DNA from: Punica granatum
Lineage: Eukaryota > Streptophyta > Magnoliopsida > Myrtales > Lythraceae
DNA length: 64,000 nt
Direction of reading: 5' to 3'
Assembly (NCBI RefSeq): GCF_007655135.1
Contig: NC_045134.1
Coordinates: 3,368,982 to 3,432,981 of the forward strand
Position 1 is the first letter of the stretch. Every line of letters begins with the position of its first letter. The notes beneath the pieces were generated by a model. It ran no database searches and was not told where the DNA came from. It saw nothing but the letters and a program-made list of their open reading frames with translations. Positions 8,256-56,579 of this stretch are shown here, one piece after another. The position numbers were made by a program, and so were the translations under genes.

Positions 8256-10274
8256 CTACAAACCAAAGAAACCTCGGCACTTTGAAGACCCACACAAACA
8301 TTTCCTCTTCCTCAAATTACTACTAACATCACCCTCATTGGTCACAACTCCATAATCATAGGTCAACTCTGTCATTGGAGGAATATGCCTCAGAGTGAAG
8401 AAGGCAATATGCATATACGACTGACTGTTGTCTTCATAAATAATGGGTTGCCAGAAAACATTGGGATAGCAGCTGTGGTTCATAAATCGTGCCACGTTCC
8501 CGAAACTCTTGGCAGAAATAACTAAGGGCGAAGGGATGTTGTAAACCTCTTCTGCGGAGGGGTCATCAGAGCTGTCCCTCTCAAGCAACCCGGGATCATT
8601 CCACTTGAAAGGCTGATAAACTCGGCTTGTATCAAAAACATAATCATCCTTCTCACCTTCTTGCAGCCTCTGTTTTAATCTAGCTTTGTCTATGACTTCG
8701 CCGGCGTACTCACATATAAAAGTGCCCGCTCGAATGGGATCCCAAGAACGGAGACCCCATCCTCGGTCCTTGGTCTTGAACACTTCGAGACGGAGCTTCA
8801 GACCGGACTGGGAGACCCGGTTCTTGCAGCCGGGGAAGCACTGACAGGACGGCCCACACTCGTACAGCATCGGCTTCCTACTCACAAGGATCCCATTTCC
8901 AATGTAAGCGAAGTCGCCCTTGTTTGTCTGATTGCAGGAGCAGTTGAGGTCCCCAGGATTGCATGAACTTTGGCACTTGCAACTAGAGGAACTAAGCGCA
9001 TTGTAGGGCTTAAAGTACCTAAGAGATGGGAAGTAGGTGAAATAACCAGGTGCCTTCTCATTGTCAACATCATTCACGAGAGTTACAGGGGTGCCCTCGG
9101 CCCCTGAAGTGAGGTCTGGATTTATGAGACCAGCACGAGTGGACACCCCTTCTTTCCACTTCTCAATCGATTTCCATATACCAAAAGCTGGAGACTGCCC
9201 AGGAACCCTAACTAACTTGTACTTGAAGATATTAGCACCGGACTTTCCCTTCTGCATCCATGATTCTTGTATTGTATAGAGTCCATCATACACATAGACC
9301 TTAGAGTTTAGGTTGACCCCGTCTCTCATTCCACGAATGACTCTGACTTCATTTCCTCGGCGCAGACTCCTCTCCAGAGCAAGGTTGCCCCTCTCGAGCT
9401 TCTGATCGGAGGCCTGCTTTTCGACCATATTCGCCCCCCCACCCTGACCACTATAAATCAAGACATTCTCATCCCCAGCATCATCATCATAATATCCTGA
9501 TGAAACAATGCTTAAGGCCACGGGGTCTTCGTCAGATTCTCCCTTGACATTCAAGTAGTCAATACCCGCCATGGACGGGGCATGCAGTCCCAAAACACAA
9601 AGCTCCATCCGGAAGAAGAAAATATCACCAACTTCAACACCAGGGACCGTTCCAACTCTCCTCCTCTGGTTTGTTCGGAACATTTTGGTCATCAACATGT
9701 TGCCGGCTTTCAGGTCTGCCCGCTTGGCAAGCCCACTTGGGGTCATACCGGAGTCTTCCAATTGGCTAAGCCGCCTCCGGAGCCCATCAAAGGCTATCAT
9801 GACGAGATCAACCACTTCTCTGTTACCGTCCTCTCGCTGCACCAAACTGATTGGAGAAACGAAGTTGTGATTAACGGGTATCTCCAATGCCCTGCTCCTC
9901 CTCTCTGCAGATGTCATTTTCTGAGCGGATCTTAGAGGGCGGCCAGAACGTTTCCGACTATCCGAACCCCTTGATGCATCCATTGAAGACTCAACGTCTC
10001 CATTGGGCACCGCAGTCGAGGGCTCGGGTGTCCTAAAGGACCGAAGAGGAGTTGGAGCAGCTGGAGGCTGTGAAGCTGGCGGCGGGGATGCAAAGGGGTA
10101 AAACGGCGAATACCCAGCAGGAAATGGGCCGCTCGGGGGAGCTTGAACGTAGTTCGGGGCTTGGTCGGGTGATGGCCATATGGGCTTCAAGCTTCTGAGA
10201 GGCTTCACATCCAAAACCCTAGTCTTATCAATGGATGCAGGAGGGACAGAGTTCAGTCCTGAACCTCCTTGCAT
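8256..10274 (-). CDS. SUVH1: SUVH1/3-type histone H3K9 methyltransferase
   Basis: A nuclear SET-domain enzyme expected to methylate histone H3 lysine 9 and to bind methylated DNA through its SRA domain. The coding region is one exon of 672 residues. I chose the ATG at 10274 because MQGGSGLNSVPP followed by VLDVKPLRSLKP matches the usual start of this subfamily; an upstream in-frame ATG at 10343 would add 23 atypical residues. Order of parts: proline-rich N-terminus, AT-hook-like KRSGRPLRS (~108), SRA/YDG with GTVPGVEVGDIFFFRMELC (~208 on), Cys-rich pre-SET (~431-490), SET with RGWGLRSWD, catalytic-region RFMNHSCYPN (~596) and ELTYDYG, then post-SET CLCGSSKCRGFFG at the C-terminus. All zinc cysteines appear present. 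Members of this group can act as methyl-reader activators as well as repressive writers. Confidence 0.95.
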   Translation of the reverse strand: MQGGSGLNSVPPASIDKTRVLDVKPLRSLKPIWPSPDQAPNYVQAPPSGPFPAGYSPFYPFASPPPASQPPAAPTPLRSFRTPEPSTAVPNGDVESSMDASRGSDSRKRSGRPLRSAQKMTSAERRSRALEIPVNHNFVSPISLVQREDGNREVVDLVMIAFDGLRRRLSQLEDSGMTPSGLAKRADLKAGNMLMTKMFRTNQRRRVGTVPGVEVGDIFFFRMELCVLGLHAPSMAGIDYLNVKGESDEDPVALSIVSSGYYDDDAGDENVLIYSGQGGGANMVEKQASDQKLERGNLALERSLRRGNEVRVIRGMRDGVNLNSKVYVYDGLYTIQESWMQKGKSGANIFKYKLVRVPGQSPAFGIWKSIEKWKEGVSTRAGLINPDLTSGAEGTPVTLVNDVDNEKAPGYFTYFPSLRYFKPYNALSSSSCKCQSSCNPGDLNCSCNQTNKGDFAYIGNGILVSRKPMLYECGPSCQCFPGCKNRVSQSGLKLRLEVFKTKDRGWGLRSWDPIRAGTFICEYAGEVIDKARLKQRLQEGEKDDYVFDTSRVYQPFKWNDPGLLERDSSDDPSAEEVYNIPSPLVISAKSFGNVARFMNHSCYPNVFWQPIIYEDNSQSYMHIAFFTLRHIPPMTELTYDYGVVTNEGDVSSNLRKRKCLCGSSKCRGFFGL

Positions 10275-10430
10275 TGTACCAATCCTTTCAACAGCAAAAG
10301 CACAACCCTCAACCTCAAATCCCCAAATCTTCAGTCTCCACAAATTCCCACACTAAATCAACCTTAACCCTTGTCTTCTTCCCTTCAGATTATGCCGGAC
10401 AAACATGCAGCTACTGAACAGGCCATGTCC

Positions 10431-41763: not shown

Positions 41764-42996
41764 TTAGGTGGCAGTTTGGATATTCTCCCACGTCCCGTAC
41801 TTGGAGCTGAAGCTGCCTCCACCGCTCTGCTCTGCATACTCGAGAATGACAGCTCGGGAACAATTGTCCCATGTCCTTGCTATGTCCTTGAGGGACATGA
41901 GCTGTGAGAGCCTGCGGAGGGAGATGCTAAACCTGGACTTTGCCTTCGCTGAGAGATCTTCATACTCTTTGCTGTAAAAATAACATTTTTCCCCCCAAGT
42001 CCTCGAAGGAAAGGGGCATATTTAGTTGATGTTCACATAAATAATATGTATCAGATATGATTTTTTTCCCCCAACTCAGAGATGGAGAATGCACAGAAAA
42101 TGAAGAACGCAATATTCCCTCACCTTACTTCAACAGGAAACTTGTCAAGGAGTACTGGAGAGCAGTTCAGGTAATTTGACGGAACAAGCAGCCGCAAGGG
42201 TTGAATCGGTGACTGCATACAAACAAGCCACATAAAGAACATTTCTTGACAATTCTACAGATAAAGGAATTGCTCCTGAAAGTTTTAGTAGCCCACCAGT
42301 TGTGCAGACCGTACTATGACTTCAAGCCCGGGCTGAGAGACACAGCATTGAAAGAGCATCTAACCACAACTCCCTCACCCCCTTCTGCCACAGCAGCTGC
42401 AGCAGTTGGATCGACGTCCTCATCACTAATATCGACGATTATGTCTATAAGCTGTTGGTTTATTTCCCTGATCTCTTCCTTAAGGACATGGTTCGCCTCC
42501 ACAAGATTGCACGCCTGCATCAGATTCAATCTTTACAAGAAGATATACCAGAAGCAGGCTTCTAGTTCTCTGAATCAGCGCGCATAGGGGATGGAGCCAG
42601 AGGAGTCGAAGGAGATGGGACTACAAAAGGCGAACTTGCAGACTGTAAAGGAGTCCCAGTTTTAGTAACAGATGTTAGCAGATCCTGCTGATCGATCTGT
42701 GGGGAAGAATGCTGTGGAATCTGAGGGGACACAGCCTGCAGAAGCTGAGGGGAGAAGATGGGAAATGAAGATCCCAGTTTCAGCTGTTGGCAAGGATAAG
42801 CTGGCCGTTGCCCTGTTACTGAATGGTGCTGCTGAAAGACTCCCGGTTTAACGCCCATGCCGGGTCTTATTTTCATCTCATTCATCGGATGCAGTTGTGA
42901 CATCTGATGAGCCTGCAGCTGTGTTGGAAGTTGTTGCTGCTGCTGCTTCGCTTGTTGGCAACTGCTGCTACCGCTACTGCCTAAGCCTGTTGACAA
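41764..42996 (-). pseudogene. MED15: MED15 C-terminal fragment, copy 1
   Basis: Mediator tail subunit 15 links activators to RNA polymerase II. The minus strand, from 42996, has Gln-rich QQAKQQQQQLPTQLQ, then SPQIPQHSSPQIDQQDLL, TKTGTPLQSASSPFVVPSPS and TPLAPSPM. A stop follows at SEN and then a frame change. Next come IREINQQLIDIIVDISDEDV and DPTAAAAVAEGGEGVVV. Further exons read SPIQPLRLLVPSNYLNCSPV, then [20 protein letters not shown] and [19 protein letters not shown] with stop at 41764. Splice borders remain. It lacks the KIX-bearing N-terminus and carries lesions, so it is a decayed C-terminal segment of a MED15a-type gene. Confidence 0.85.
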
Positions 42997-46190: not shown

Positions 46191-46945
46191 TTAGGTGGCA
46201 GTTTGGATATTCTCCCCCATCCCGTACTTGGAGCTGAAGCTGCCTCCACCGCTCTGCTCTGCATACTCGAGAATGACCGCTCGGGAACAATTGTCCCATG
46301 TCCTTGCTATGTCCTTGAGGGACATGGGCTGTGAGAGCCTGCAGAGGGAGATGATAAACCTGGACTTTGCCTTCGCCGAGAGATCTTCATACTGTTTTGC
46401 TGTAAAAATAACATTTTCCCCCCAAGTCCATGAAGGAAAGGGACATATTTAGTTGATGTTCACATAAATAATAAGTATCAGACATGATTTTTCCTCCAAC
46501 TCAGAGATGGAGAATGCACAGAGAATGAAGAACGCAATATTCCCTCACCTTACTTCAACAGGAAACTTGTCAAGGAGTACTGGAGAGCAGTTCGGATAAT
46601 TTGAGGGAACAAGCAGCCGCAAGGGTTCAATTGGTGACTGCATGCAAACAAGCGACATAAAGAACATTTCTTGACAATTCTACAGATAAAGGAATTGCTC
46701 CTGAAAGTTTTAGTGGCCCATCAGTTGTGCAGAACCGTACTGTGACTTCAAGCCAATGCTGAGAGACACAGCATTGAAAGAGCATCTAACCACAACTCCC
46801 TCCCCCCCTTCTGCCACTGCAGCTGCAGCAGTTGGATCGACGTCCTCATCACTAATATCGACGACTACGTCTATAAGCTGTTTGTTTATTTCCCTGATCT
46901 CTTCCTTAAGGACGTGGTTCGCCTGAACAAGAATCTATGTGGAAT
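46191..46945 (-). pseudogene. MED15: MED15 C-terminal fragment, copy 2
   Basis: Same exon order as copy 1: a VDISDEDVDPTAAAAVAEGG block at about 46780-46900, SPIQPLRLLVPSNYPNCSPV at about 46555-46640, and the terminal exon with [20 protein letters not shown] ending at 46191. The Gln-rich upstream portion is absent and sequence diverges at about 46935. No start or promoter. Near-identity to copy 1 indicates a recent segmental duplication with relic DUF4220 attached. Confidence 0.82.
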
Positions 46946-48349: not shown

Positions 48350-48701
48350 CTTAGCCCGTCCTCTAGGCACCTTTGGAAGGCAGGGAGTGTGACAATGTAC
48401 ACGCTTCCCTTTACTCCATAGGGCCTTCTCATCAGTTGCACGGTTCGGTGGCCCGAAATTGACTTGGCTTCGCCAAAAGGCCTCATCTCTAGAAGCCCGG
48501 CTCACGAGGCGTCCCTCTCGCAGTAGGGTTCCAGACCTCGCCTCGCTCTTGTGACATGCTATCTTTCCCCTCTTCATTCCAAGTAAAGGGTGAGTCCCAT
48601 GCGTCAGTTTGTGGATCGCGGTCTCACGCACTAATCCCTACAGGTGCCCGTAGTAGGCCGGCCACCCTACCTAAACCAATCATCGTATCGGTCCCTAGGC
48701 C
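48350..48701. other. GC-rich filler block at a rearrangement junction, possibly organellar
   Basis: About 350 bases of higher GC content are inserted between the TNL promoter copy and a MED15 fragment and match neither neighbour. Long open frames exist on the minus strand (PFGEAKSISGHRTVQLMRRP). The style recalls plant mitochondrial DNA, but that origin is not demonstrated. Clean borders with two unrelated duplicated segments suggest capture during break repair. Confidence 0.4.
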
Positions 48702-48860
48702 TCAACCCCTTCTGCCACAGCAGCCACAGCAGTTGGATCGACGTCCTCATCACTAATATTGACGACTGTGTCTATAAGCCATTGGTTTATTTCCCTGATC
48801 TCTTCCTTAAGGACATGGTTCGCCTGAACAAGATTGCACGCCTGTATCAGATTCGATCTT
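48702..48860 (-). pseudogene. MED15: MED15 fragment, copy 3
   Basis: Carries the DISDEDVDPTA-type exon on the minus strand (matches 42385-42540 and 46800-46945), truncated on both sides. It lies 3' of the chimeric gene at 49.3-51.2 kb, in normal MED15 exon order, so it may be the remaining downstream part of that MED15 copy. Confidence 0.7.
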
Positions 48861-49293
48861 TACAAGAATCTATATGGAGTAATACGACCAAACAAAAGTT
48901 TATCAAATCAGCAGATGGAGAAAAAAATGGGAGCTCGCAAGTAAATCATGAGCCTCATTCTTTTTTCTTTTTATTGTTGTTTTGTTTTATTTATTTATTT
49001 TGTTTGCCGAAAGAAGAAAATACATTATTACTGATGTAAAAAAGGCAGGGAAGATGTTTGCTTGCAGAATGTAGTGTTCCGACCATAAATCAAAACGAGA
49101 AGAAAGAGTCCCGGCTTGAGAAATAGCAGCTTGTATCTAGGGGGATGGACAAGACAAATTTTCTGAACTTTCATGATTCTTTTTATATAAACTAAGAAAT
49201 AAATGCTAGCTGAACTCGGAATGAAATTAATGTTACAGAGGAAGCAGAAAGCTGTTCTTTATTTTCCTTATATTGTTGACCAACGTGAGGCTG

Positions 49294-51196
49294 TCACTGT
49301 TGAGGCTGCACTGAGGGCATATGATGCGGTGGAAGTTGCCCTTGCTGCCTTCTGGGCCTGTTAGTATTTAAGAATTGCACTATCTGCTTCTCATAAGAGG
49401 GCAGCTTCTCCTTGAGGCCTGGATATATTTCACTTTTGGGAACTTGCAGCATAGCAATAAGGCGCTCCAACATTACTTTGAAGAGTATCAGCTTTTCAAG
49501 CTGCTCCGACCTCGGATGCTGAGGAAGAGAATCATGCTGCCAGGACCAAATAAAATTACTATGTTGTCAAAATTATATAGGGTTAACTTTCTCGCAAAAG
49601 TTTTAACCCTAAGGAGTACACCTTGCCCAGCAAAATAAGCTAAAGTATACAAAGTGTCTGTACCTGCTGCAGCTTCGTAGCAATTTTCTGGTACATCTCA
49701 TTTAAGTCTTGCAAATAAAAATCCTTCAAAGATTTGATCTGCCACAAGAAAAATCATAACATGATCAATTGCTGAACCTTTCGACAATCACCAGTAAGCA
49801 CTTGCGAGAACTCCTCAAGATTACAGTAATGTCAATGAACTAGCACATATTAGATATAATGCTCAAAGCTAAATCTCTTTTAACAGACGACATCTCACCC
49901 CAAAGACTCATGAGAAAATTGCGAACTTATATGATTTACTTTTTCTTGTTTGAAGTCCCTCAGCCCTCCCTTTCATATATTCAGGCACAAAATTAAACTG
50001 TACTAACGCGTCGCACTCCACCAAAACCCCTCAAATGAAGAAAAGCATCTTCTCCATTTCAATAACAACAGGCAACACACATAAAGTGAAAAGAGTGAGC
50101 CTGCAGTGTACCCTCTGATAAATCTCCTCTTGCCAGTCACCTCCATTCGCTTGGCCTGCCTGAGCAGTGGAATAAAGAGGCACTACAAAAGAAAGATGGA
50201 ATATAACTTGCTTCATATAGATATGAAATTTATAGTCTAGAATAGATTGCAAAAATTACTATAGAAAGTAGAACCAATAGAGAGGAAAGACATACTCGAT
50301 GATGCCTCTGCAAGGCCTCTCTGATTTCGGTAAAGCTGGTTTTGTTGGTCCATCATATTTTGGGTGGGTTGAAGCACCGAACCTGATGCTTGTAGTCTTT
50401 GCTGCATATCTCTTTGTAGCGAAGATTGTTGCTGCCGTAAGCAATTGTGCCCGAACACCCGACACTTCGAGCACTTTTCAGGAACCCATGGGATACTCAC
50501 AGAGATTCCAACTACAAAATCATCACCGCAATCTAGCATAATCTCTGCAGGTATCTCATCCTCAAAATCGATCTCAACACATACTTTAGCAAAGTCCAAA
50601 TGAGTTTGTTGAGCAGTTCCCTTGTCCATGTATAGAGGCTTCCCCACCACACTAGCAATATAACTGATGCCTGTGCAGTCGTAGAGGTGCATAGGGATGT
50701 TACGCAAAATCACCCAGACCGGGATTTTCCGAAAATCAGCCTTACCTACCGACAACTCAGTGCACCATCTCTGTAGAATCAATGGTATATGTCCCACATG
50801 CCACGGACCTGATTCCAGCACCCAATTAAGGGTTTCTCCATCGGAGAATTTAAAAATATAGAGCTGACCTCTTGTAGATACCCGCACAGTGTTTTCCCAA
50901 AGCATATTAACGGTGGAGGTAACTTGCTTGAAATCAGGAGTAGAGCCAACGAACCAGCCAATCAAGCAGTTTTGCCATTGATTCTTCCCCCTTTCGATCA
51001 CTTCCCTTGGTGGCTTAGCTATTTTCCTTCCACCAACTTCGACAGGAGAATGAAAAACCAGAGATTGAGAGCATCCAGATCCGAACAGATTTGTCCAGCT
51101 TTTAGTTCCATTGCCTACCTTGTCGCCCGAAATTGAGCTCCAGATGCAATTTACATGAAGATTTGGAGCAGTTTCCGATGATTGATGACCCGCCAT
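49294..51196 (-). CDS. Chimeric gene: DUF4283/zinc-knuckle domain fused to MED15 mid-region
   Basis: Predicted exons: 50296-51196, 50112-50182, 49664-49738 and 49294-49536. All have GT-AG borders and matching phases, for 429 residues. Residues ~1-240 are a DUF4283 domain with a terminal zinc knuckle (ESGPWHVGHIPLILQRW; CSKCRVFGHNC), as in ORF1-like proteins of plant LINE retrotransposons. Without a break, the same exon continues as MED15 sequence: SSLQRDMQQRLQASG, MMDQQNQLYRNQRGLAEASS. The next exons read QANGGDWQEEIYQR, IKSLKDFYLQDLNEMYQKIA and SEQLEKLILFKVMLERLIAM, then KLPSYEKQIVQFLNTNRP. A TGA stop lies within the Gln-rich region. Each MED15 exon boundary looks ancestral. It has no KIX domain and no MED15 C-terminus. 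No lesion is seen. Whether it is expressed is unknown; a role in DNA or RNA binding plus Mediator contact is speculative. Confidence 0.72.
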
Positions 51197-54100
51197 GGTG
51201 GCTGGAGAAGCCGGAAACCTACCGGAAATTCGAACCGAAAATAAGAAACCAAGCTGTCTCGCTTTACCATATAATTTTTTTTATCAATAATTATGCAATA
51301 GAATATATATTATATATTTGCATATATCCCAGCAGAATATATACAAGAGAATAAAATATGCAGTAGACTATATACATTAGCTTTTATTTAAGAAAATATT
51401 TATATGGTAAAAATCGAATTGTCATTCATATATAATGTAACAACGGACCCATATATAGATTATGCAATAGAATATATAGGTTATATATACATTGCCCAAT
51501 ATATGGATTATACACAACAGAATTAGCCCAACTATATGACTTAGTTATAGTAAATTTTCATATTTGATGTTATTTTAATAAATATGTATATGTATATATA
51601 TCTTATCCCGTAAGTCGTCAATATATAAATGGCAACAAAATGTATAATAGTTAATGGATACATGCTTATTACGTTATTACATATATATTACTATATAATT
51701 TAAATATTATGTTTCATTTTCTCAAATTTGGATTCTCTCTTTTCGGTTGTCTATATATATATATATATGTCTACTGTTGCTTCAATTCTACAACAAGCAA
51801 CGATCCGTATGAAAGGCATTCTCCTATTTCTTATTTTGAGACGAATGTCACATGTGGTACCTGCTCGAGATTAAGTGGCAGAGGATCCGACCCTCAATTG
51901 CTACCCCTTAATGTGCGACTTCTTTACATAAGAATAGTTTTTTTTTTTTATTTCGTTAGGGGTTTTGAGTTGGTAGTTTAAATTTTCTTTTGGGGTTTAA
52001 TTTGTTGAGGTATCAATCACTTTAGTTGTTAATTATTCTTTTATATTTCATCAAGGGTATTGAGTCGGTAGTTTAAATTTTCTTTTGGGATTTTGTTAAG
52101 GTATCAAGCACTTTAGTGTTTTAATTATTCTTATATATTTTACCTCAAATAATTACTTTTCTATAGAATTGTTGCATTACTAGTCCTTTTGCCGTTCATT
52201 TTAATATATTTTTTATATTCGTTTTATTTCGAAATTCTAATTTCTCTATAAGATTAATAAAATTTCATAATTATTACTTATTTTAAATTTCAAACAATAA
52301 TTATTCAGATTTTTTATTAAAAATTACAATAACTTAAATAGTACAATAATAATTTTGCATTTCTAATTTTGAACTAATCTTTGATTTTGTTATTTGTCAA
52401 ATGATTAATTACAATACTTTATTTTTTATTAGTTTTATTTTCTTATTTTACGCAAATTGAGTATTCTAATCCTCTTTAATATGTCCTTATATAATAGAAA
52501 ATGTAGTTAGTTTCACTATATAATATTGGTTGTATCTTAAAAATTACTATCATATATATTAACACAAATATATGTTCTTTGTTTTTATAAGACTTGTTCA
52601 TTGTACCTTAAAAATCATTATATTATTAATTATTATTTTATTTATTTTATTTAGTATGAAGTTTCGAATTAAATTATGAAATTTAGCTTTCTTACATTAT
52701 CAAGAACATTTATTACGAACATTTATTACAAGAGCAGTCTATTTTCCAATATAAATTATTAAATTATGAAATTTAGTTTAGTTATAATATTGGGAACATT
52801 TATTACAACTGTAGTTATTTTACTATTTTTTATTTAGTGTAACATACTCACTATAATATTTAATTTATGAAATTCAGGTTTTCATAGTCGTAGTTTGGTT
52901 TACTAATTTTACTTACATATAGATTTTCAATCTCGTGCATTGCACGGGTTTTATTTACATATGATAATTATTCACAATTTCTAAAGATGAATTGCTTTCT
53001 TATGAGCCATAAGAATTCTCAATAATTGATTTCAATTTTTGAAGAAATAATGTCTAATATGTAATTTCATCAATTTAGTGACAATAATTTTGTGGTTGAT
53101 TCTCATGTTTAATTTACTTTGTGTTAATATTATCCGAGATCATTATACATATTTGTTTCAAATATAGAAACTTGATTTTGTAATTTTTTTTATTATATTT
53201 TTTAATAGTATATCGTGATGTTCTCAATAAGTGAATTTTTTAATAGTATATTTTTTAATAGTTTATATTTCAATCCTAAATATGGACTTGTATATAGGTA
53301 ATATGTGAAATTTGTTGTAAGATATACTTATTTTTATTAATATAAATTAATTACAATAATATGTTGATAGCATTTATTAAAGACATTTACTATTTGGTGT
53401 AGTTTGTTTTACTATAAATATATAGACAGATAGATAGATTTTTTTATTGTATTTAAGTTTTTATACTATCTAACATAATAAGGGACGTATTATAAATTTT
53501 GATATTCAAACATGATCATCAATTTCGTATATAAAATGCATATATTGTTCTAATAGTATTGAAAAAGTCCAATACAATTTTTTTTGTTCATAGTTAGAAT
53601 TTCTTAATATTATAAGCCTTTTCGGTAAAATTTCATTGACTTTAATGATTCATTTTTACTTACTTTCAATAAAATCATGGTATTATAGTAGTATTTTGAT
53701 GTTTCAAATTATATTATTTTGTAATTTTAGTATTCCATAATTTCTAATTGTAGTTCGCAAGATATTTAGGTGTCGATGTTATAATTTTTTTATTAATCTT
53801 TGTTTATAAATTTTCTTTTTTTCATAATTTTTAATTGCAGTTAGTAACACAATCTATTGCATTTATTATGCACCCACCCATACATTGTATTTCATTTATT
53901 ATGCATTTACAATTGTAGTTGTTTCACTATTTTTTATTTAGTATAACATATTCAGTATAATACTTAGTTTATGAAATTTTTCTATAGTTGTAGTTTGGTT
54001 TGCTATTTTTTACTTAATTATTGATTTTCAATTCCGTGAGTCAGGTTTTATTTACATATGGTAATTATTTTTTTGACAAAATATGGTAATTATTCACAAT

Positions 54101-54840
54101 CTCTAATGATGAATTACTTTCTTATGAAAAGTAAGAATTCTCAATAATTAATCAATTTAATAAATTTAGTGACAATAATTATGTGACTGATTCTTATCTT
54201 TAATTTGCTTTGTGTTAATATATTTGTGTTAATAATATAAGATATCATTTTATATATTTGTTTCAAATATAGAAACCTGAGCTTGAAATTTTTTATTATT
54301 ATATTTTCTAATAGTATATCTTGTCTCATTTAAAATACTTAAATTTACGTGTCTATATTATATAATTTTTATAATTATTCTTCGTTTTTAAATTTTCTTT
54401 TTTCCATGATTTTTAATTGTAGTTATTAAGACATCCTATTGCATTTATTATGCACCCACTTATGCATCCAAGTAAATTTTACTAATATATAAATTATGAA
54501 ATTTAGTTTAATTAAAATATTGAGAATATTTATTACGGACACTTATTACAATTGTGGTTGTTTTACTATTTTTTATTTAGTATAACATATTCACTATAAT
54601 ATTTAATTTATGAATTTTTTTTATAGTCGTAGTTTGTTTTGCTATTTTTTACTTACATATAGATTTTCAATCACGTGAGTTACACGGGTTTTATTTACAT
54701 ATGGTAATTATTTCTTTTTTGGTAAAATATGGTAATTACTCATAATCTCTAAAAATGAATTACTTTCTTATGAACTGTGAGAATTCTCAATAATTAATTT
54801 CTATTTTTGAAGAAATAATTTCTAATCTATTAGAGTTTAG
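51197..54840. repeat. Very AT-rich block with dispersed internal repeats
   Basis: The first part (51265-51500) resembles the Helitron interior at 26040-26200 (AATATGCAGTAGACTATATACATTA-like words). Further right, a ~240-bp unit recurs three times, at about 52850, 53945 and 54590. Its landmarks are TAGTCGTAGTTTG, GATTTTCAAT, CACGGGTTTTATTTACATATG, GGTAATTA and AGAATTCTCAATAATT. The TGCATTGCACGGG word of the first copy is a small palindrome. No gene is recognised; probably nested, decayed transposon DNA. Confidence 0.65.
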
Positions 54841-56579
54841 ACTAATTTAGACTAAATCCACTGCGCACTCTCATCTTCAATATTAGCACCCCAAGAGAAC
54901 TTACCTGAAAAACATGAAATTTGGAATGGATTGAGCTCGACAACCCAAGGAGTAATCACACCTACACTAGCCAAGTCTACGCATGGGTTCAATATCCAAA
55001 GATAACAATAAACATAACACTAATCATCCCTAGCCTCTTCTTAGAGCCAAGGTTCACGAATCAACCGAAACCTCGTTCAGAAACATATCACATATCATAC
55101 TTATATGATCAAAATCGATAATCATCATAACAAAATACATGCGTGCCTCAAGACATCGACATGGCCATGACAATGAATTTAAAAGATCGTATACATCCAT
55201 TTCAAAAACACTAACTTAGGATAGATTACTCACCTTGCACTACTCGCTCGAAAATCCGACACTTACATAGGGTGAGTACCTTACTACTTTCTCATAATCT
55301 CTCTAATTTTCTCCGTCTCTCTATTTCTCTCCCTCACTGTGATGTCGTTAGATTTTCTTTTCGGCAGTAAGAAAATGATGACTATTTATAGAGAGTGTCA
55401 AAGGGACGGTTTACTGGGAGAAATCAATGCACCAAAGAGATTTATGGAATAAAAAAAATAGATGGTCAAAGGTTATTTTACTAAAATTCAATTAAATAAG
55501 GAAAAATTATTGTAAACACAACAATTCCTTCCTATTGGATGTTTTAAGACCAGCTATTGAAACATAAAAGAACAATTTATAAAACATGGCAATTAAGAGG
55601 GGAAACGGCTGAGGAAGTGAATCGGAGAAAATGTCTATATTTGCACCCAAACCAATTTAACAAATAAACGTCATCATAATTAATAATAGAAGATATGAAT
55701 ACATTTACGGAAATAAGATGAATGACTTTTAGAGGATAATTGAGAAACGGAAGGTAATAGGGAGGAAATGCCTTTATTGCTTATATAACCATATAGAAAC
55801 AATATTTTCAATTAATTAGAAATAAATTCCAAATATAATACATTTATTAAACCAATGGACTTATGCAATGAAATCTTGTTTGTTACTATTCTCCAAACAA
55901 GAACGTCGTCGATCAAAACATCTATATTTATAAGTAACTGAAAAAGAAAATATATCTTTCTAATTTAATTACGATAATTTACTCATAAAACGAGTAATTG
56001 CTCCAAATTTATTATAGCCGACGGAACACACACAAGTAGCAGGAGGAGGAATGAAGCTACTACATGACTTTTCTGTTACGTAGTTGAGATCACGGTCGAC
56101 TTTGACTGACTAAATGAATGAAATGAATCAAATCCCAATTATTACCACACAAATTGAGAATCCTACCATTAAGATATGGCCTCGCCTCTTGTTTCCAGTT
56201 ATGGACAATGAATTTTGAATCGGAGAAATCCCCTACCTATTAATTCTCATGCATCTAGATTTCGGAACTTAACTAAAGAACCGTGTGTAATCGACGTATG
56301 TCGGAATTTTTAGTATTCACATATTCAAAGAGATTGGTGTCCCATATGCTGCACCCGAAAACGATAACTTTATTCACAGGAAAGAGATTCAATGTATTGG
56401 ACCGACTTCATTAAAGTCCATTACAAGAACAGGGTATATGTTGTCATATATTAATAGCACTGGCACATTCGAAAAACGCTGGAATAGTTTATCATCATGA
56501 TTTTTCACGATATCTCACATTGCAATTCCTTTATCATGTCCATTAGCCGATAATCATATTAGAAAGATCTAATTGATTT
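54841..56579. other. Gene-free sequence, possibly retroelement-derived
   Basis: Bases 54841-55420 show a CT-rich stretch (CTCCGTCTCTCTATTTCTCTC) and a TATA-like GACTATTTATAGAGAG, read right to left or as a decayed LTR. I cannot define ends. 55420-56579 holds nothing recognisable. Confidence 0.3.

Follow-up and report, generated by a model that had tools for sequence, protein, structure and literature searches.

A LINE ORF1–MED15 Fusion in or Beside a TIR-NB-ARC-LRR Gene Cluster of Punica granatum: A Probable Relic of Rearrangement Annotated as a Gene

Introduction

The described systems closest to the locus considered here are the ORF1 of plant LINEs carrying DUF4283 and a zinc knuckle, which we take to be of the L1 type, and plant MED15 (MED15a) together with partial MED15a-like copies. 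The KIX domain of MED15 is a site of activator binding, and the C-terminal region of yeast Med15 is the part that binds Mediator. According to the relevant parts of PMC10565003 and PMC4770211, MED15 is required for salicylic-acid responses in Arabidopsis. A table in PMC4759884 lists DUF4283 among the integrated domains of NLRs, the domain being thus joined to host coding sequence.

We analysed a window, i.e., a whole stretch of 64,000 nucleotides of the Punica granatum contig C8, where a LINE ORF1–MED15 fusion lies in or beside a cluster of TIR-NB-ARC-LRR (disease-resistance) genes. With a probability of roughly 80%, this fusion is a chimeric gene fragment made by rearrangement, in other words, a relic annotated as a gene.

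Gene Model and Its Two Parents

The fusion model lies on the minus strand and consists of four exons (Table 1), with all introns of the GT-AG type and an open frame of 429 aa followed by TGA. The initial annotation had proposed one uninterrupted exon leading from DUF4283 and the motif CSKCRVFGHNC into MED15 sequence, and three further MED15 exons retaining splice sites and phase for a protein of 429 residues. The former was confirmed by the open exon 51196-50296 and the latter by splicing and by the RefSeq model. In fact, the fusion protein (P0001) is 100% identical over 429 aa to the RefSeq entry "uncharacterized protein LOC116188132 [Punica granatum]", which is kept as a protein model under a name seen without a low-quality tag. 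No mention of LOC116188132 was found in the literature searched, and absence from print is not claimed. The copy of the fusion in the window and the second copy are designated below as F1 and F2, respectively.

Table 1. Positions of the parts of the fusion, its lesions and adjacent MED15 relics in the window.
Feature	Position	Strand	Basis
Interspersed repeat bordering the LINE piece on its 5′ side	51236..51400	-	36 other places in genome search, 74-89%
5′ half: LINE piece (44 nt ahead of ATG, followed by ORF1 carrying DUF4283 and a CX2CX4HXC zinc knuckle), cut at both ends	50440..51240	-	Pfam; DNA identity to L060 and L036
Exon 1 of the fusion model (DUF4283, knuckle, MED15 start)	50296..51196	-	Protein identical to P0001/LOC116188132
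GCT microhomology at the junction, common to the LINE relative and MED15	50440..50442	-	Window, L060 and L032 compared
MED15 half: Q-rich exon end, middle helical domain, three introns retained	49294..50442	-	93.75% to L032 6218-5053, 1168 columns
Exon 2 (MED15)	50112..50182	-	GT-AG, phase intact
Exon 3 (MED15)	49664..49738	-	GT-AG, phase intact
Exon 4 (MED15), holds stop codon	49294..49536	-	GT-AG splicing, open frame
Premature TGA	49294..49296	-	L032 has CCA, L033 has TCC; codon deleted from copy 2 and L034
Breakpoint of 2.0-kb internal MED15 deletion (L032 5053 to 3036)	49276..49277	-	Same new joint in truncated copy L034
Orphaned MED15 intron and C-terminal exon start (exon ~48700-48835, ends early)	48702..49276	-	Sequence comparison
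MED15 C-terminal relic B, C-terminal piece only	46194..46919	-	Sequence comparison
MED15 C-terminal relic A, its coding pieces interrupted by two in-frame stops	41767..42834	-	Sequence comparison

The surroundings in the window contain TIR and NB-ARC frames in neighbouring ORFs and many repeated blocks. Neither TIR nor NB-ARC was found in P0001 itself, its only Pfam match at E ≤ 0.1 being DUF4283. Elsewhere in the window, positions 8256-10352 hold a 698-aa open frame with SRA, Pre-SET and SET domains, presumably of the SUVH type, and positions 52000-56000 are very AT-rich (20-27% GC), contain imperfect internal repeats and are retained in F2.

The DUF4283 match of the LINE half (E 4.5e-28) comprises residues 87-207 and the full profile (1-124), and all 42 conserved columns are kept. 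The knuckle that follows was recognised by eye; Pfam zf-CCHC_6 scores 12.3 bits there, under the cut-off of 22. It is also visible by eye in P0017, P0018, P0022 and the LINE relative L060, and without the His in P0041. L060, located at C8:5.02 Mb, shows 91-92% DNA identity to the LINE half in two stretches and alters 4 of at most 24 conserved DUF4283 columns within its stretch. Past the junction, L060 goes on with an ORF1 tail, and matches to P0123 and P0132 in their ORF2-like parts follow; at the fusion locus, the LINE ends at the junction, and the ORF1 tail and the ORF2 endonuclease/RT are absent. Another relative, L036, is 87% identical in DNA over 51240-50821. By visual comparison, L036 and L060 remain alike for some 40 nt past 51240, whereas the window does not resemble them there; the 5′ end of the LINE is thus missing from the fusion locus too.

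A different LINE family, found among the loci L018-L031, is 43% identical to the DUF4283 half of the fusion. At 16 places its ORF1 frame is open over 425 aa, and the scores of these places are almost equal, a pattern suggestive of recent activity.

The 3′ part of the fusion duplicates sequence of the type found in L032 (C8:3556000-3565900), a MED15 gene about 140 kb away, the homology being unbroken from 50442 to 49277 of the window. The open frames of L032 code for parts of KIX, a Q-rich stretch of 457 aa, the middle domain, another stretch of 481 aa and the C-terminal exons; a first exon was not found. Its exons are mostly 98-100% identical to P0023 (CDL15_Pgr022402). The protein tree places the fusion as sister to P0023, on end branches of 0.10 and 0.06, respectively. 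L033, L034 and L035 are further partial MED15 copies, as far as their sequence was retrieved. At C8:3.41-3.65 Mb (L009-L011, L032-L035), the MED15 gene and partial copies share their stretch with TIR/NB-ARC repeats. Our own profile of the plant MED15 middle domain, built without the fusion, matches 114 of the 136 proteins retrieved, including P0001, and F1 alters 2 of 29 highly conserved columns, as does P0023. Before the stop, there is no coding indel between the fusion and L032, all three alignment gaps lying within introns.

The initial annotation had seen no lesion in the fusion. This proved wrong, as the terminal TGA stands at a position where both paralogues compared have a sense codon, and the 2.0-kb deletion follows it. 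Six codons of the homologous frame (QPHVGQ, as in P0023) lie beyond the TGA; the annotated protein thus ends where a MED15 exon has its first nonsense codon. The deletion joint is common to the window and L034, and the deletion thus predates the split of these copies. Nearby MED15 fragments are indeed broken, as had been noted (relics A and B and the exon that ends early, Table 1). KIX (PF16987/PF09606) and Med15_C (PF21539) were not found in P0001 by Pfam at E ≤ 0.1, Med15_C being found in P0023, and no MED15 5′ exons were found upstream of the fusion. The view that a retroelement domain replaced the KIX half is right in that KIX is absent, but incomplete, as the C-terminal half of MED15 was lost too. 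Intron distances among the copies (F1-L034 0.091 over 210 sites, F1-L032 0.059 over 596, L032-L034 0.075 over 210) are not tree-like, which suggests gene conversion or unequal rates.

Junction and Second Copy

At the junction, the LINE relative reads ...CACAATTGCTCTTCAAAG, MED15 reads ...GTGGGCTTACAGCAG and the window reads ...CACAATTGCTTACGGCAG, GCT being present in both parents. The knuckle's final cysteine codon agrees with that of the LINE relative, and from there the frame enters the Q-rich codons of MED15. F2, situated 66 kb away at C8:3483952-3485848, carries the same junction, and its flanks show 91 substitutions in 7949 bases. Its stop codon is deleted, so that the frame has 434 aa and ends in HSFLLPL. 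Because a second, diverged copy has an identical junction, an assembly error at the LINE–MED15 boundary was rejected. The alternative that a LINE inserted into a MED15 copy that was otherwise in place is not favoured; an interspersed repeat lies directly upstream, with no MED15 match there.

An assembly or haplotig artefact of a wider kind is extremely improbable: two copies about 1% apart on one chromosome of one assembly could be misplaced alleles, but both carry the same junction even so, and the divergence from the window is of a different extent in neighbouring stretches.

Divergence and Selection

Comparison of F1 with F2 gave 8 changes in 1283 aligned coding bases (427 codons), 6 nonsynonymous and 2 synonymous, with dN 0.0060, dS 0.0073 and omega 0.82, a value of low power resting on eight changes only. 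An omega of 0.1 is unlikely (P 0.006), 0.2 is borderline (P 0.065) and 0.3 is compatible with these counts (P 0.18). The DUF4283 half contains three of the six nonsynonymous changes and no synonymous ones. Fusion residues 304, 324 and 381 and the 3′ end are among the places that distinguish the two copies. The coding change is lower than that of the flanks, non-significantly (P 0.11), and introns show 3 changes in 613 positions.

In the MED15 half, F1 differs from L032 by 27 nonsynonymous (stop-codon steps included) and 7 synonymous changes (dN 0.067, dS 0.068, omega 0.99). The introns give K 0.059; the MED15 half and the introns have thus diverged from L032 to about the same extent. A high omega does not mark out the fusion, since L032 and L033 themselves differ by 12 nonsynonymous changes to 1 synonymous. 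Between the DUF4283 half and L060, omega was 0.20 over 87 codons (11 nonsynonymous, 12 synonymous) and 0.70 over a further 21 (5 and 2, respectively); against L036, it was 0.50 over codons 1-92 (23 and 12), where codons 88-92 lie past the L036 frame shift and are overcounted. The low F1-L060 value may reflect constraint in an active LINE or at a later time and is not assignable to the fusion.

In a simulation of neutral decay, 429 codons remained intact with a chance of 16% at 1% change and 3% at 2%. With such odds, two open copies 0.6% apart are weak evidence for function, and the open frame was rejected as its proof. As a whole, the fused frame bears no clear sign of preservation by selection in these tests of low power.

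Origin and Possible Function

From the kin of both parents, the junction, the lesions, the second copy and the near-neutral change, all observed, we infer the order of events and the end-joining at the junction as follows. A MED15 gene lies in or beside a tandem TIR-NB-ARC-LRR array, where partial MED15 copies have multiplied. A copy with the 2-kb internal deletion would have been joined, probably by end-joining at GCT, to a truncated LINE with its ORF1 still open. The frame would have been kept by chance, so that the 429-aa protein which gene finders splice extends as far as the first nonsense codon in MED15. Later, a further duplication would have included the fusion locus and no less than 10 kb of its surroundings. 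A counterpoint to the relic reading is that the fused frame is open in both copies.

It is unlikely that the locus is a transcribed pseudogene or a source of small RNA, whose read-through transcripts would perhaps silence MED15 or the LINE family without any protein role. Several MED15 copies are clustered and LINE kin occur elsewhere in the genome, but in the C8 loci retrieved every MED15 match is on the minus strand and no inverted pair occurs.

We regard a functional new gene as still less likely. In this case, the LINE module would anchor the middle domain of MED15 on RNA or DNA, or else the protein would titrate transcription factors off MED15 in a dominant-negative manner; given that MED15 is required for salicylic-acid responses, an effect on immunity is conceivable. 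The frame open in two copies, the intact DUF4283 half (42/42 columns), the existing RefSeq model, the predicted structure of both modules with pLDDT mostly above 90 and the annotation of free-standing middle-domain proteins in other plants are consistent with this possibility. However, omega is near 1 both between the copies and against L032, the C-termini of the two copies differ, the end of the protein is set by a premature stop, and no MED15 5′ region was found upstream. On these grounds, together with the absence of KIX and Med15_C, the earlier idea of a new gene redirecting Mediator is not supported, with the low power of the selection tests as a caveat. It is very doubtful that a young expressed LINE ORF1–MED15 protein serves, in an immune-receptor cluster, as a decoy or dominant-negative form for activators binding the MED15 middle domain.

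Under the relic reading, the fusion most likely has no protein role, and none of the tests made here pointed to a function. If transcribed, it would give an RRM-like/zinc-knuckle module, presumably nucleic-acid-binding, on the MED15 middle helix bundle, modelled as three helices, without KIX and the C-terminal region. Its incorporation into Mediator is not expected, because the C-terminal region, the Mediator-binding part in yeast, is lost.

Partial and domain-repeated MED15a-like proteins are common among the matches: two to four copies of the middle helical domain occur in 26 of the 136 proteins retrieved (among P0002-P0030, P0035, P0044, P0077 and P0101), and P0008, P0009, P0010 and P0021 are short proteins with a repeated middle domain and without a precomputed KIX or Med15_C match. 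Such repeated occurrence in MED15a-like proteins of other plants makes a role of its own possible for this domain. Human MED15 ABD3 (8j9a) was rejected as a structural match of the plant middle domain, having Foldseek rank 2 but E 1.0 and probability 0.33, and not being among the 50 VIA rows listed. The profile of alignment A2 was also rejected, its sole match being the MED15a KIX structure 9zjn, a part absent from the fusion. A PDB sequence search with P0001 gave one match only, with E 0.2.

Comparison with Known Systems

The fusion illustrates well how an annotated in-frame chimera can arise from a retrotransposon ORF and a duplicated gene fragment, with kin of both parents still present in the genome. 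It also shows why an open frame says little in favour of a new gene: by construction, the frame ends where the first lesion lies. Were the fusion expressed and functional, it would represent a retroelement domain fused to part of a Mediator subunit.

In common with plant LINE ORF1, the fusion has DUF4283, a zinc knuckle recognisable by eye and the start codon as in L060, with 91-92% DNA identity to two stretches of L060; it differs in having no ORF1 tail, no ORF2 and neither LINE end, and in continuing into MED15. With plant MED15/MED15a and partial MED15a-like copies it shares the Q-rich exon end, the middle helical domain and introns, but it has no KIX and no Med15_C and carries a LINE ORF1 at the N-terminus. 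Both parts, DUF4283 and the MED15 middle domain, were met in only 1 of the 136 proteins retrieved, P0001 itself. A predicted protein of Quercus lobata, A0A7N2LQE6 (P0071), with KIX_2, zf-RVT (a zinc-binding domain of reverse transcriptases) and the MED15 middle domain, likewise mixes retroelement and MED15 parts; however, its retroelement part lies inside a KIX-retaining protein and may be a gene-model read-through.

Proteins P0128 and P0129 from two Euphorbia species combine DUF4283 with a precomputed TIR domain and may represent an integrated domain kept by selection. Together with P0130 from Hibiscus, they resemble the fusion in the joining of DUF4283 to host coding sequence, whereas the partner in the fusion is MED15 rather than an NLR or a kinase, and NLRs are merely its neighbours.
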